Origin: Gammaproteobacteria bacterium Ga0074134
GTDB lineage: Bacteria; Pseudomonadota; Gammaproteobacteria; Ga0077554; Ga007554
NCBI GenBank assembly: GCA_001464965.1
Contig: LNEJ01000038.1
Location: 1 to 35,510 of the forward strand
Reading direction: 5' to 3'
DNA: 35,510 nt
Of this stretch, positions 28,687-35,418 are shown piece by piece. The notes beneath the pieces were generated by a model that did not search any database, was not told where the DNA came from, and was given only the letters and a program-made list of their open reading frames with translations. Numbering within the stretch: position 1 is the stretch's first letter; each line of letters starts with the position of its first letter. The translations under genes were made by a program, and so were the position numbers.

Positions 28687-29046
28687 CTAACCCAGCAACA
28701 CCAGCCCCCACATCACTATGACGTTGGCATGAGCCACCATCACGGCCGCTGAGCCCAGATCTTTCGCGCGTCCAGCCAATGTATTGAACTCCATGCCGGT
28801 GCGATCCACGGCCGCTTCCAGCGCGGAGTTGAGCAGTTCAATTATCAGCACCAGTATCAGGCAACCCACCAGCAGCGCCCGTTCCATGCCGCTATTGCCC
28901 AGCCAGATGCCGAGGGGGGCAAGGATCACGAACAGCGCAAGCTCGATGCGAAAGGCCGGTTCCAGGGTCAGCGCGGCTTTGAGGCCCTTGAGCGAATAAC
29001 CCGTCGCCCGGACGATATGGACGAGTGGTTTATCCTGGCTCGCCAT
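28687..29046 (-). CDS. dgkA: Diacylglycerol kinase, DgkA type
   Basis: A small inner-membrane kinase that phosphorylates diacylglycerol to phosphatidate during lipid recycling. The 119-residue protein has three hydrophobic helices and the family signature IIELLNSALEAAVDR with Glu70, Asn73, Glu77 and Asp81, followed by AKDLGSAAVM. GGGA precedes the ATG. It starts 3 bases after the gcvPB stop and so looks like the last gene of the glycine cleavage operon, an unusual partner. Confidence 0.93.
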   Translation of the reverse strand: MASQDKPLVHIVRATGYSLKGLKAALTLEPAFRIELALFVILAPLGIWLGNSGMERALLVGCLILVLIIELLNSALEAAVDRTGMEFNTLAGRAKDLGSAAVMVAHANVIVMWGLVLLG

Positions 29047-29049
29047 GAG

Positions 29050-30501
29050 CTATCCCAACGGCTTCCAGGCAAGATCCAGTTCGCGCGCGGCCTTGACATC
29101 ATCCAGGCGCCGCACGGGCAGGGTGTGGGGCGCCGCCTTGACGATCTCAGGCGTGGTTTGCGCCTCTGTGAGAATCTGCTGCATGGCCGTGATGAAGCGG
29201 TCCAGTTCTTCCTTGGCCTCGGTTTCGCTCGGCTCGATCAGCAGGCACTCCGGCACCAATAGCGGGAAATAGGTGGTGGGTGCGTGATAACCCAAATCGA
29301 GCAGGCGCTTGGCGACATCCATGGCGGTGATGCCCAGCTCCTTGGCCTGACGCTTGAGGGTAACGATGAATTCATGCGTGGCACGGCGCTCCGGAAAGGC
29401 CAGATCAAAGCCGCTGTGCGCCAGGCGCGCCATCAGGTAATTGGCGTTGAGCGTGGCGAATTCGGCGACGCGATGCATGCCTTCCGATCCCAGCAGGCGC
29501 GCGTAGATATAGGCGCGCAGCAGCACACCCGCGTTGCCCATGAAGGCCGAGAGACGGCCAATGGTTTGCGGCCGGTCCGATTCGGTGAGGAGGCGGTAGG
29601 CCTTCCCGTCATAGTCCACAATAGGTACCGGCATGAAGGGTAGCAGCCTTTCACTTACGCCCACCGGCCCGGCACCGGGGCCGCCGCCGCCATGCGGAGT
29701 GGAAAAGGTCTTGTGCAGGTTCATGTGGATGACATCGAAACCCATGTCGCCGGGCTTGACCTTGCCGAGAATCGCATTGAGGTTGGCGCCGTCGTAATAC
29801 AGCAGTCCGCCGGCCTCATGCACGATCCGCGCAATCTCCATGATGCGGCGCTCAAACACCCCCAGCGTGGAAGGGTTGGTGAGCATGATCCCCGCCGTGT
29901 GCGGACCGACCGCAGCCTTCAGCGCCCCGATGTCCACGTCCCCCTGTGCATCGGTGGGGATCTCGCGCACCGTGTAGCCGCACATCACTGCCGTGGCCGG
30001 ATTGGTGCCATGGGCCGCGTTGGGCACCAGAATTTCGGTGCGCTGCGTATCATTGCGTGCGTCGTGATAGGCGCGGATCATCGCCACGCCCGCAAACTCG
30101 CCTTGCGCGCCCGCCATCGGCGTGAGCGATACGCCCTTCATCCCCGTCACTTCCTTGAGCATCTCCTGCAACTCATACATGCAGGCAAGGAATCCCTGGC
30201 TCAGAGATTCCGGCGCATGAGGATGGCGCGCCACAAAACCGGGCAGCATCGCCAGCTTGTTGCAGGCGCGCGGGTTGTATTTCATGGTGCATGAACCCAG
30301 CGGATAAAAATGCGTATCGATGGAGAAGTTTTTCTGTGACAGCCGCGTGTAATGCCGCACCGCCTGAAGCTCGGAAACCTCGGGCAGCAAAGGGCGTTTT
30401 TTGCGCCGGAATTTTTCGGGGATAGCCTTCAAGCCCGCCTTGTCTTGCGGAGCCTGTGAGGGATTGCGGCGCCCGGGATGGGAGTGTTCGAAGATCAACA
30501 T
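29050..30501 (-). CDS. gcvPB: Glycine dehydrogenase (decarboxylating) subunit 2
   Basis: The C-terminal half of P-protein in organisms with a split enzyme. It carries the PLP lysine in NLHKTF (Lys264), next to the glycine-rich loop [15 protein letters not shown], and acts with GcvPA to decarboxylate glycine and pass the aminomethyl group to lipoyl-GcvH. The 483-residue length is normal. A weak AAAGG precedes the ATG. It is separated from gcvPA by the tpx gene, with 48 bases between tpx and itself. Confidence 0.96.
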
Positions 30502-30549: not shown

Positions 30550-31050
30550 TTACTTCAGTGCCGCCAGCGCCTTCTCATAATCCGGTTCCTGGGCGATTTC
30601 CGGCACGAGTTCGGTGTAGAGCACGTTATCATTCTCATCCAGCACCACCACGGCACGGGCGGTGAGGCCGGCAAGCGGGCCGTCCTGAATCAGCACGCCG
30701 CATTCCTTGGCGAAATTGCGGCCGCGCATCATCGACAGGGTGACGACGTTGCTTAACCCCTCGTTACCGCAAAAACGCTTCATGGCGAACGGCAGATCGG
30801 CGGAGATGACCAACACCACCATGTCATCGCGATTCTTGGCGAGTTCGTTGAACTTCTTGGTGGAGATGGCGCACACAGAGGTATCAAGACTGGGGACGAT
30901 GTTGAGCAGCTTTTTCTTGCCTTTGAAATCGGCAAGTTCCTTGTCGCTCAAATCTTCAGCTACCAATTTCAGGTACGGGGATCGGGTACCGATTTTCGGC
31001 AGATCGCCGTTGGTGTGAATGGGATTGCCTTTCAGTGTAATCGTGGCCAT
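30550..31050 (-). CDS. tpx: Thiol peroxidase (2-Cys peroxiredoxin)
   Basis: It reduces peroxides using thioredoxin. The 166-residue protein has the peroxidatic Cys60 in [11 protein letters not shown] and the resolving Cys94 in RFCGNEG, matching Tpx of the atypical 2-Cys type. AAAGGAG lies before the ATG. Its place between gcvPA and gcvPB on the same strand puts it in the glycine cleavage operon, perhaps protecting the lipoyl or FeS chemistry made here. Base use and spacing look like its neighbours, so no sign of recent insertion. Confidence 0.96.
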
Positions 31051-31085: not shown

Positions 31086-32450
31086 CTACGACGTCAGTAT
31101 AGCGCGCAAATGCCTGGCAAACAGTTCAATATCAGCCGCATTTTTGGTTTCGGTAGCGCACACCAGCAGTGCGTTGCCCAATTCGGGATAATCGCCGCCC
31201 AGCTTGTATCCGCCCAGCAGACCACGATCGGCAAGCCCGCCCAACACCTCGTCCACCGGGCGCGGCAGTTGCAACACAGCCTCATGGAACAGGGGCCGGT
31301 CGAAGAGCTTGGTAACACCGTCGATAGCGGTGAGCGCCTCGACGAGGGCCAGGGTATTGGCGTGGCATGCGGCCGCCACACGCTCCAGGCCATCGGGGCC
31401 GAGCAATGTCATATGGATGGTGGCGGCGGTGACTACCAGGCCCTGATTGGTGCAGATGTTGGAGGTGGCCTTGGAGCGGCGGATATGCTGTTCGCGTGCC
31501 TGCAGCGTGAGCGTAAACCCTGGTTTACCGTCGAGATCGACGGTGCGCCCCACGATGCGCCCCGGCATCTGGCGCACATGTTCCATTTTGCAGCACATAA
31601 AGCCGAAGTACGGCCCGCCGGAGGACAGCGGGGCGCCCAAGGGTTGACCCTCGCCACATACGATATCCGCACCGTTATCGCCCCATTCGCCCGGCGGAGT
31701 GAGCACCGCCAGCGAGACGGGGTTGACCACGCCGATCACCAGCGCGCCGTTGCGGTGCGCCCAGTCGGTGAGGGCGTCCACTTCTTCCAGCACACCGAAG
31801 AAATTGGGCTGCGGGATCACCAGCGCGGCGATGTCGCCGCCGCTGTATCTTTCCAGCGATTCGGGAACGGTATGACCGCATTCCGTGCAATAGGGCAGCT
31901 CGATCAACTCGATGTTCTGCATGGTGACGATGGCGCGCACCACCTTGCGATAGGCCGGATGCACGGTGCCCGGCATCAGCACGTACCTGGATTGCGACTT
32001 GCGGTTGGCGCGCACGGCCATCAACACCGCCTCGGCCAGCGCCGATGCGCCATCGTACAGCGAGGCATTGGAGACATCCATGCCGGTGAGGCTGGCCATC
32101 ATGGTCTGGTATTCGTAAAGCAGTTGCAACGTACCCTGGCTGGCCTCGGCCTGATAGGGGGTGTATGAACTGTAAAACTCCCCGCGTGTGGCGATCTCCC
32201 ACACGGCGGCAGGGATGTGGTGGTCATAGGCGCCCGCGCCGGCAAAGCACAGCGGGCGGCCATCCTGTTCGGCGCGCTGCATCATCAGGCGCGTAACATC
32301 CATTTCGCTCATGCCGGGAGGAATGGATTTCAGCGCCGCCGTAGCACGCAACGCCTCGGGGATTTCGTCAAACAAATCCTCTATACCCGCCACGCCGATG
32401 GCGGTGAGCATGTGCTGGATATCATCTTCTGTGTGTGGAATAAAAGGCAT
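31086..32450 (-). CDS. gcvPA: Glycine dehydrogenase (decarboxylating) subunit 1
   Basis: The N-terminal half of split P-protein; it has the aminotransferase-like fold but not the PLP lysine, which is in GcvPB. Recognised by [15 protein letters not shown] at the start, [16 protein letters not shown], and SNICTNQGL near residue 340. The length of 454 residues is normal. The ribosome site is weak (AGAGA). A repeat-rich spacer of about 165 bases separates it from gcvH upstream. Confidence 0.96.
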
Positions 32451-32474
32451 GGGTTGTCTCTTTAATGCTTGTTG

Positions 32475-32606
32475 GCCACAGAGGCGCGAAGGACGCAGAG
32501 AAATGAATGCGGGTTGGGCAACCGCTAACCGTGCTTGTTGGGTCCGCTACGCTTGACCCAAGCTACACTACATTCTTTGCCTCTGTGTCCTTCGTGCCTC
32601 CGTGGC
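32475..32606. repeat. Inverted-repeat element with nested REP, inside the gcv operon
   Basis: Long arms (32475-32500, containing gccacagaggcgcgaagg, and 32581-32606) match at about 22 of 26. Nested inside is a REP-like hairpin, read on the minus strand as GTAGCTTGGGTC-loop-GACCCAA, again with the GTAG foot. It sits between gcvH and gcvPA, so it is probably transcribed and may set the relative amount of downstream mRNA. Confidence 0.6.
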
Positions 32607-32616
32607 AAAAACCAAA

Positions 32617-33012
32617 TCAATGCGCCTCGGCTGCAACCAGTGCGGCGTAGGCGTTCGCATCCAGCAGGCTGTCCAGCTCTGCGGTGCTGGAGGGCTTGAT
32701 GTGCATCATCCAGCCTTCGCCATAGGCGTCTTTGTTAATCAGGTCAGGGCTGCCGCCCAGCGCCTCATTGACGGCGATGATCTCACCGGAGACGGGGCTG
32801 TAGACGTCCGAAGCCGCTTTCACCGATTCCACCACGGCGCACTCCTGGCCCGCCGTGACGCTACGGCCCGGCTCCGGCAGCTCGACAAATACCATGTCGC
32901 CCAGCAAATCCTGGGCATGGTCGGTGATGCCGGCGCGTAACGTGCCGTCAGCCAGCAATTCAACCCATTCGTGGCTCTTGGTGTATTTCAAATTGGTGGG
33001 GGTTTTACTCAT
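32617..33012 (-). CDS. gcvH: Glycine cleavage system H protein
   Basis: The lipoyl-carrying shuttle of the glycine cleavage system. The 131-residue protein has the lipoylation segment VESVKAASD with Lys65 and the start [10 protein letters not shown]. The ATG at 33012 has GAGGA upstream and the family start; the frame extends 16 codons further into gcvT, which is not used. It begins 10 bases after the gcvT stop. Its modification needs the LipA encoded two genes upstream. Confidence 0.97.
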
Positions 33013-33022
33013 TTCATGATCC

Positions 33023-34168
33023 TCATTTTTGTTCAATACATGATTTGCCATGGCGCACAAACGGCGGCTTGACTATTCTCACGGCCAGTAGCTTGCCACG
33101 CACATCCACTTCAACATGCTCTCCCGCCTCTTGCGGCACGCGCGCAAAGGCGATGGCCTTGCCCAGTGTCGGCGAAAAGCTGCCGCTGGTGATTTCACCG
33201 GCCTCGCGACCATCGACAATGACCTTCTGGTGATTGCGCAGCACGCCCTTATCGTCGAGCACCAGGCCCACCAGCTTGAATTTGGCCCCTACACGGCGTT
33301 GCGCCTCCAGCGCTGCCCGTCCGATAAAATCGCGGCTGGCCGGCTCCCACGCCACGGTCCAGCCCAGGGCCGACTCCAGCGGGGTGGTGCCTTCGTCCAT
33401 ATCCGCACCATACAGATTCATCCCCGCCTCCAGGCGCAAGGTATCGCGCGCGCCCAGGCCGATGGGCCTGACACCTGCTTTATGCAGCCGCTGCCAGAAA
33501 CCCGCGGCCTGCGTGGCAGGCAGCATGATCTCGTATCCATCCTCTCCGGTATAGCCGGTGCATGCGATGAACAACTCGCCCGCGTGCAAGGCGTAGAACG
33601 GCCCCAGCGCGGCGGCCTGCGGCGCTGCCGTGCCGATGAGTTCATGAACCGCCGCGCGCGCCTGCGGACCTTGCACGGCAATCATGGCAAGATCATCGCG
33701 CTCTTTCACTTTCACAGCAAATGCGGCGGCATGATGGGTGATCCACGCCAGGTCTTTATCGCGGGTGGCGGCGTTGACCACCAGCCGGAACCATTGTTCG
33801 GTATTGAAATAAACGATCAGATCGTCGATGACGCCGCCTTTTTCATTCAGCATGCAGGTATATAACGCCTTGGTCGCTCCCGGCATCCCGCCTCCTGCGA
33901 CACTAGCACGTCCATGTGCGTCGCCCGGCTGCGTCAGGCGGTCAACATTATTCGCCAGCAGATAACGCAAGAACTCGCGCACCCGCTCGCCTTCGAGATC
34001 AACGATGGTCATGTGCGACACGTCGAACATCCCCGCCGCGCGGCGCACACTGTGATGCTCCTCGATCTGCGAGCCGTAGTGCAGCGGCATGTCCCAGCCG
34101 CCGAAATCGACGATTTTCGCACCCATGGCGAGGTGCGCTTCATACAACGGTGTTCTATGGCCCATCAT
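33023..34168 (-). CDS. gcvT: Aminomethyltransferase (T-protein) with an in-frame insert
   Basis: It moves the methylene group from lipoyl-GcvH to tetrahydrofolate, releasing ammonia. The 381-residue protein shows the T-protein motifs [31 protein letters not shown] and [14 protein letters not shown]. Between DRLTQP and ALYTCML there is an extra Gly/Ala-rich stretch of about 18 residues (82-99) absent from the E. coli protein. GAGGTGA abuts the first ATG, so the second ATG at 34165 may be the true start. It follows lipA by 13 bases. Confidence 0.95.
33872..33925 (-). repeat. Putative small repeat inserted in frame within gcvT
   Basis: These 54 bases encode the extra residues 82-99 of GcvT ([18 protein letters not shown]). 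They contain the short inverted motif GCGACGCAC near one end and GGGAGCGACC at the other. The reading frame is kept across the insert. The resemblance to palindromic elements that insert into genes in frame is inferred; no second copy was seen in the window. Confidence 0.4.
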
Positions 34169-34181
34169 TCACCTCGGGTAG

Positions 34182-35117
34182 TTATGTTTTTGCCGCAGAG
34201 GGCGCTACCGGCCCCTGTTTTTCTTCCGCATGATACGAAGAGCGTACCAGCGGCCCCGCTTTCACCCACGCAAAACCCAGCGCGCGCGCCTCTTGCTCGT
34301 AATTGGCGAAGGTCTCCGGCGTTATATACTCTTTGACAGGCAAATGATGGCGCGTTGGACGCAGATATTGGCCCAACGATACGCGGCTCACACCTATGGC
34401 GCGCAGATCGCGCAGCACCTCCGTCACCTCCTCGCGGCGTTCACCCAGCCCCAGCATCAGCGACGACTTGGCCGCCACGCCCGGCTGGCTGGCGGCCCGC
34501 TCCAGCAGGCTCAACGAACGTTCATAGCGGGAACCCTTGCGCACGGTTTTGTATAAACCGGGGACTGTCTCGACGTTGTGCCCCCACACCAGAGAACCTC
34601 CCCCGTCCAGTGCGGCGGTTATGGTCTGTGTCGCCTGCTCCTGGCACTGCTGAAAATCCGGTGTCAGCAGCTCCAGGCCTATATGGGGCTTGCGGCGGCG
34701 CAGCTCGCGGACGGTATCCGCGAATACCCTTGCCCCCCCGTCCGGCAGATCGTCGCGATTCACCGACGTTAGCACCACATACCCCAGACCCATGTTGATG
34801 ACGGCATCCGCCACGCGGCGCGGCTCGTCGAGATCATAGGCACCGGGGCGGCCGGTCTTCACCGCACAGAAGCCACAGGCGCGGGTACAGGTATCGCCGA
34901 GCAACATGAAGGTGGCCGTGCCGCGGCTCCAGCATTCGCCCCGGTTCGGGCAGCGCGCCTCTTCGCACACGGTGTGCAGCGCATTGCGGCGCACGGCATC
35001 CGCGGTCAGCGCGTACTGGGAATGATCGCCCAGATGCTGGCGTATCCAGTGGGGCATGCGCCCCACATTGGGCTGCATATCGGCCTGATCAAAAATAGGT
35101 TTTATGGCTTGGGACAT
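34182..35117 (-). CDS. lipA: Lipoyl synthase
   Basis: A radical SAM enzyme that inserts two sulfurs into octanoyl groups on carrier proteins such as GcvH. The 311-residue protein has both clusters: the auxiliary motif CEEARCPNRGEC (Cys51, Cys56, Cys62) and the radical SAM motif CTRACGFC (Cys77, Cys81, Cys84), and the C-terminal RSSYHAE with the cluster-binding Ser. The ATG at 35117 has AGGA upstream and the family start; the frame runs further up through the riboswitch but is not coding. First gene of the glycine cleavage operon, directly behind the riboswitch terminator. No lipB is present in the window. Confidence 0.96.
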   Translation of the reverse strand: MSQAIKPIFDQADMQPNVGRMPHWIRQHLGDHSQYALTADAVRRNALHTVCEEARCPNRGECWSRGTATFMLLGDTCTRACGFCAVKTGRPGAYDLDEPRRVADAVINMGLGYVVLTSVNRDDLPDGGARVFADTVRELRRRKPHIGLELLTPDFQQCQEQATQTITAALDGGGSLVWGHNVETVPGLYKTVRKGSRYERSLSLLERAASQPGVAAKSSLMLGLGERREEVTEVLRDLRAIGVSRVSLGQYLRPTRHHLPVKEYITPETFANYEQEARALGFAWVKAGPLVRSSYHAEEKQGPVAPSAAKT

Positions 35118-35145
35118 AGGCTTCCTGGCGCTGCAAAACAAAAAA

Positions 35146-35180
35146 GGGCGGCAGATAAACCCCGCGTTTATCTGCCGCCC
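35146..35180 (-). terminator. Riboswitch-controlled intrinsic terminator before lipA
   Basis: A perfect 15-bp stem (gggcggcagataaac at 35146-35160 and its inverse at 35166-35180) with a 5-base loop is followed on the minus strand by TTTTTTG at 35145 downward. It starts directly after the second glycine aptamer and ends about 28 bases before the lipA start, so it is the expression platform of the riboswitch. Confidence 0.9.
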
Positions 35181-35356
35181 CTCTGTCCTGTGTACCTGAG
35201 AGCTTGAGCCCCTTCGGCGGGCCTGTCCGGCTTGCCGGCGGCCACTCTCCAGAGTCAACCCTCTCCCGCGGTCCTTTTGCCTGAGCGATTCCGGGCGGTT
35301 TGCGCCTTCGGCGTCCCGCATCTCAAAGCGAGGCGGGATCTCTTCCAGGGGAGGGA
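35181..35356 (-). promoter_or_regulatory. Tandem glycine riboswitch (gcvT motif)
   Basis: Two aptamers lie in series on the minus strand. Aptamer 1 (about 35261-35356) has ACGCCGAAGGCGCAAAC and CTCAGGCAAAAGGACC; aptamer 2 (35181-35254) starts CTCTGGAGAG, has CCGCCGAAGGGGC and ends CTCTCAGG...AGGACAGAG. These are the conserved cores of the glycine riboswitch. The linker between aptamers is about 7-8 bases. In known cases glycine binding prevents termination, so glycine should switch on lipA and the gcv genes. A GCCGCC in aptamer 2 could pair with GGCGGC of the terminator as an antiterminator. AT-rich -10-like sequence (TAGTATATT) lies on the minus strand at about 35369-35377. Confidence 0.95.
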
Positions 35357-35418
35357 TGTTGATGGAGTAATATACTATGACTCTGCCGGTGACGCCAGAG
35401 TGCAATATTTGGGGCGAA

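Follow-up and report, generated by a model that had tools for sequence, protein, structure and literature searches.

Operon and leader

On the minus strand of the window (the whole stretch of DNA that was analysed, 35,510 nt, contig LNEJ01000038.1 of Gammaproteobacteria bacterium Ga0074134), two glycine aptamers and an intrinsic terminator precede a lipoyl synthase gene, which is followed by the glycine cleavage genes. The features were as follows, with the evidence for each in parentheses.

35363..35367, minus strand: leader strand UCAAC of the P0 helix, position within a base or two (sequence and compensatory changes)
35259..35357, minus strand: glycine aptamer 1 (RF00504, 58.2 bits, E 1.1e-9)
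35173..35258, minus strand: glycine aptamer 2 (RF00504, 37.6 bits, E 3e-4)
35254..35258 (approximate), minus strand: inter-aptamer linker GUUGA, 3' strand of P0 (sequence and compensatory changes)
35142..35184, minus strand: intrinsic terminator with a 15-bp GC-rich stem (terminator scan, folding, and sequence)
34182..35117, minus strand: lipA2, second lipoyl synthase, 311 aa (TIGR00510, 365 bits; paralog by genome search and tree)
33023..34168, minus strand: gcvT (TIGR00528, 440 bits)
32617..33012, minus strand: gcvH, the lipoyl acceptor (TIGR00527, 162 bits)
31086..32450, minus strand: gcvPA (NF001696, 618 bits)
30550..31050, minus strand: tpx, thiol peroxidase (NF001808, 242 bits)
29050..30501, minus strand: gcvPB (NF003346, 741 bits)
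28687..29046, minus strand: small gene read as dgkA (label of the first-pass annotation; place conserved in relatives)

The T, H, and P proteins of glycine cleavage, the last split into PA and PB, are encoded together (curated models). The first-pass annotation, made from the window sequence, had given the gene order as lipA-gcvT-gcvH-gcvPA-tpx-gcvPB-dgkA; curated models bore out the first six genes, and an NCBIfam search of the window gene returned no match for dgkA. lipA2 runs from an ATG at 35117 to a stop at 34182; the open frame at 34182-35405 was rejected as the lipA gene because it runs through the aptamers.

Gaps are 13 nt between lipA2 and gcvT, 10 nt between gcvT and gcvH, and 166 nt between gcvH and gcvPA. 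A window scan gave no sigma-70-like promoter on the same strand between the riboswitch and lipA2 or between lipA2 and gcvT, the two places where a separate promoter would count against shared control, and the gaps (~30 nt and 13 nt) leave scant room for one. We infer one transcript through gcvPB; the 166-nt gap between gcvH and gcvPA, with its inverted repeat, counts against a single operon. That repeat (32451-32616; GCCACGGAGGCACGAAGGACACAGAG / CTCTGCGTCCTTCGCGCCTCTGTGGC) is long and could affect transcript processing. The position of tpx between gcvPA and gcvPB is recurrent but dispensable (29 of ~43 evaluable LipA2-gcv operons, hand count).

A separate repeat, around GGAGGCGGGATGCCGGGAGC, has eight copies in the genome, one of which (window 33876-33895) interrupts gcvT in frame. 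At least five copies lie in frame inside long open frames, adding similar peptides of about 16 residues, and another was found within the LipA2 of a relative (L024, near 5903). It appears to be a short repeat that proteins can accommodate.

The tandem glycine riboswitch named in the first-pass annotation was recovered by a covariance search of the window with Rfam, as two adjacent RF00504 matches on the minus strand (35357-35173), both above the gathering score (cut-off, 32 bits). In a genome-wide search with the same model, aptamer 2 scored 44.6 bits at 35173-35262, and the window tandem was the sole pair of glycine aptamers found. Leader UCAAC pairs with the inter-aptamer linker (TCAAC/GTTGA in the DNA) to form the P0 (kink-turn) helix, which is kept by compensatory changes: relatives carry TCGAC/GTCGA, TCAAT/ATTGA, TCAGC/GCTGA, CCGAC/GTCGG, and TCGGC/GCCGA. 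The leader fully matches its own linker in 25 of 41 loci, compared with a mean of 5.1 and a maximum of 11 when linkers were shuffled among loci, a procedure that leaves relatedness in place; because the pair types are many and different, inheritance alone is an unlikely cause of the matches. The tandem is predicted to bind glycine and to control expression.

Two known tandems, those of Bacillus subtilis gcvT (PMC5666159) and Neisseria gonorrhoeae gcvT (PMC13104608), likewise place two aptamers and one platform before gcv; the window operon differs in that its first gene encodes lipoyl synthase. In the open-licence literature, no relevant paper was found that connects lipA or lipoyl synthase to a glycine riboswitch, and text searches of glycine riboswitch target surveys (PMC3766115, PMC12452182, PMC6944388), whose supplementary tables may mention such genes, gave no lipoate synthesis gene.

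A second lipoyl synthase and its distribution

The lipA of the window is a second, distinct paralog. LipA2 scored 365 bits against TIGR00510 (lipoyl synthase, curated equivalog; cut-off, 310.25), and a genome-wide search placed the canonical LipA (LipA1) on contig 52 at 440 bits, with lipB ~250 nt upstream of it on the same strand. The two proteins are 50% identical. The first-pass annotation had put the enzyme that makes the lipoyl cofactor at the head of the operon, which stands as to the enzyme; the gene, however, is one of two lipA copies, and the divergent one. Since the canonical lipA lies beside lipB elsewhere, glycine would induce just one of the two synthases, and would not induce the octanoyltransferase.

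In the alignment, LipA2 has the radical SAM CX3CX2C motif (CTRACGFC), the auxiliary-cluster CX4CX5C motif (CEEARCPNRGEC), and RSSYHAE. Related copies likewise retain RSSYHAE and the cysteine motifs expected of LipA, yet the whole group differs from LipA1 in consistent signatures. A quick tree of 74 rows, with the root not inferred, contained a clade of 32 LipA2 rows (SH-aLRT, 99) and a separate clade of 17 LipA1 rows (SH-aLRT, 100); LipA from Chloroflexota, Acidobacteriota, Planctomycetota, and others fell outside both. LipA2 thus shares its TIGR00510 family and cysteine motifs with the canonical lipB-lipA type, but is ~50% identical to it, forms a separate clade, and is linked to gcvT rather than to lipB. 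The best solved match by sequence was lipoyl synthase 2 (PDB 4u0o/4u0p), which has the same fold and motifs and is likewise named as a second LipA. Lipoylation genes also sit beside their own acceptor in sHdr-LbpA clusters (LipS1/S2 and sLpl), although those use LipS1/S2 with LbpA as the acceptor (PMC10332631), whereas the window has LipA and a true GcvH.

All 8 genomes examined from the window's family have, in this order, the riboswitch, lipA2, gcvT, gcvH, and gcvPA. A survey of the class (143 genomes, about one per family) gave 14 genomes with LipA2, set apart by identity (~60% or more, versus at most 55%), and in 12 of the 14 the tandem lies immediately upstream of lipA2 in the same orientation. 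The G085 contig breaks off shortly above lipA2, with the tail of aptamer 2 visible in the remaining 90 bases; G083 (L174), with a lipA2-gcv operon and no aptamer in 1.9 kb upstream, is the one clear exception. A scan of GTDB genomes added at least 27 beta- and gammaproteobacterial LipA2 loci, the matches listed including Candidatus Tenderia, Thiobacillus, Sulfuriferula, Tepidiphilus, and Parasulfuritortus. The riboswitch stands just above lipA2 in 26 of the 27 GTDB loci listed; in the remaining one, L108, the sequence stops 26 nt above the lipA2 match. Because some of these loci may come from species already in the class survey, loci rather than independent lineages are counted here.

Among the matches listed, 45 of the 46 loci that have any leader sequence carry the riboswitch ahead of lipA2. 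The location of lipA noted in the first-pass annotation also recurs: gcvT is the next gene in all 46 LipA2 loci checked, with a median gap of 16 nt and a gap of no more than 60 nt in 39. In a contrast set of 13 genomes with a LipA other than LipA2, one had a glycine aptamer. The arrangement is thus no product of chance, and anatomy, together with conservation across many families, strongly supports the regulatory reading of the riboswitch ahead of lipA-gcv. Glycine riboswitches thereby gain a cofactor-maturation enzyme among their targets, and a name is given to a clade of LipA that goes with the glycine cleavage operon in many families.

Terminator and direction of the switch

The 15-bp terminator that had been proposed ahead of lipA is well founded: its fold (-33.2 kcal/mol; shuffled mean, -11.7; z, -8.5) has the longest stem among the terminator-like sites of the region, with arms GGGCGGCAGAUAAAC/GUUUAUCUGCCGCCC followed by U6. 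The 3' strand of aptamer-2 P1, CAGAG, directly abuts GGGCGGCAGAUAAAC, the 5' arm, and the stem can grow from 15 to 19 bp if AGAG of P1 and the U tract pair as well. The minimum free energy fold of the whole ligand-free leader was the terminated form, with the 19-bp stem including AGAG and with P1 (CUCUG/CAGAG) open; a fragment with the linker and aptamer 2, ending after the terminator 5' arm, folded with P1 closed. The overlap of P1 and terminator is slight, as the G+C-rich stem begins just past CAGAG. An extended P1 antiterminator (linker plus terminator arm) fits the window and was rejected, since covariation among distinct pairs did not go beyond composition.

A hairpin like the terminator follows aptamer 2 in 32 of 43 LipA2 leaders (permissive script; a few doubtful, e.g., L095 and L097), and about a quarter of the leaders have no recognizable terminator. 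This platform differs from that of N. gonorrhoeae, which is translational (PMC13104608).

Glycine held in the aptamer should keep P1 closed and so oppose the terminator, which makes an ON switch. Glycine riboswitches in the glycine cleavage context are reported to activate and those before transporters to repress (PMC6944388), and a riboswitch in the former context has also been reported as ON (PMC13104608). From the overlap of P1 and terminator and from these published types (PMC6944388), we infer the ON direction. Without glycine, the strong terminator would form, drawing some of the P1 3' strand of aptamer 2 into its base; with glycine bound, P1 would be kept within the P0-held tandem fold and transcription would read through. 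The aptamers, the compensatory changes in P0, the terminator, the widely conserved gene order, and the paralogy of lipA2 underlie the overall explanation, which we consider probable, that the tandem controls lipA2-gcvT-gcvH-gcvPA-tpx-gcvPB(-dgkA) by transcription termination, with glycine turning it on.

Role of LipA2 and alternative readings

At high glycine, the glycine cleavage proteins and the divergent second lipoyl synthase would rise together. New H protein would be octanoylated by the separately encoded LipB, and LipA2 would convert it to lipoyl-H protein; sulfur insertion on octanoyl-H protein is predicted for LipA2 from its sequence, and GcvH is its presumed substrate. The simplest idea for the presence of a second LipA is that more H protein may need more lipoyl synthase. 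On this idea LipA, which is known to spend its own second iron-sulfur cluster as the sulfur donor, would also be worth producing alongside its acceptor. As the arrangement recurs in many beta- and gammaproteobacterial families, its carriers probably raise the supply of the cofactor in parallel with the enzyme that depends on it.

Gene order supports well the description of LipA2 as co-induced with the H protein; as dedicated to the H protein, it is not well supported. Genomes with LipA2 only were expected to be without 2-oxoacid dehydrogenase E2, which was not borne out, and because several such drafts encode E2, we do not claim that LipA2 is in general strictly dedicated to GcvH. It is quite possible, though put forward tentatively, that the LipA2 clade evolved as a glycine-induced partner of GcvH, one operon supplying the apo-protein and the enzyme that completes its cofactor, in step because of the spent cluster.

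Somewhat doubtful is the alternative that LipA2 is the general lipoyl synthase of this group of lineages, its place beside gcv being historical and lipA1 redundant. It draws on 14 related draft/MAG genomes in which LipA2 only, and no LipA1, was detected (G041 among them), several of which have E2 genes and LipB: G104 (99% complete) has two E2-type genes and LipB, and G154 has three and LipB. If the missing LipA1 does not reflect incompleteness, LipA2 would serve all lipoylated proteins in these genomes. However, the window's family and most complete LipA2 genomes retain both synthases, with lipA1 near lipB, and history alone explains poorly a lipA2-gcvT linkage that persists across many families. 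A general role does not conflict with the riboswitch reading.

It is unlikely that the riboswitch serves mainly gcv, with lipA2 as a passenger whose induction is inconsequential. A terminator-like hairpin was also found in 13 of 20 glycine riboswitch loci with no LipA2 assignment, so that the aptamer-terminator platform is not special to lipA2; yet lipA2 is the first gene in every locus, is never parted from gcvT, and keeps all its catalytic motifs.

An OFF switch is more improbable still. Bound aptamers would then free the terminator and, without glycine, its arm (GGGCGGC) would pair with a segment of aptamer 2, e.g., GGCCGCC, as an antiterminator. P1 and the G+C-rich stem are able to coexist, and of the upstream segments GCCGCC in aptamer 2 forms the most stable duplex with the arm (-15.0 kcal/mol), but this segment sits in the variable P2 stem and is not conserved among relatives, and glycine would shut down its own breakdown, contrary to the published glycine cleavage riboswitches (PMC6944388).

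That an assembly accident put lipA beside gcv is already refuted: the window contig does end ~150 nt upstream of the riboswitch, but the same order holds throughout the family and in many other families, including the single-contig genomes G026 and G131.

The glycine ON reading raises a testable question, whether the supply of lipoyl synthase limits maturation of the H protein as glycine rises; such a limit would be predicted from the known use by LipA of its own cluster as the sulfur source. The LipA2-only genomes (G104, G041, G154, and others) form a natural test of whether LipA2 serves all lipoylated enzymes. LipA2 also has an insert of very variable length before VWGHNVETVP (window ~34590-34620), which reaches ~50 residues in L024.
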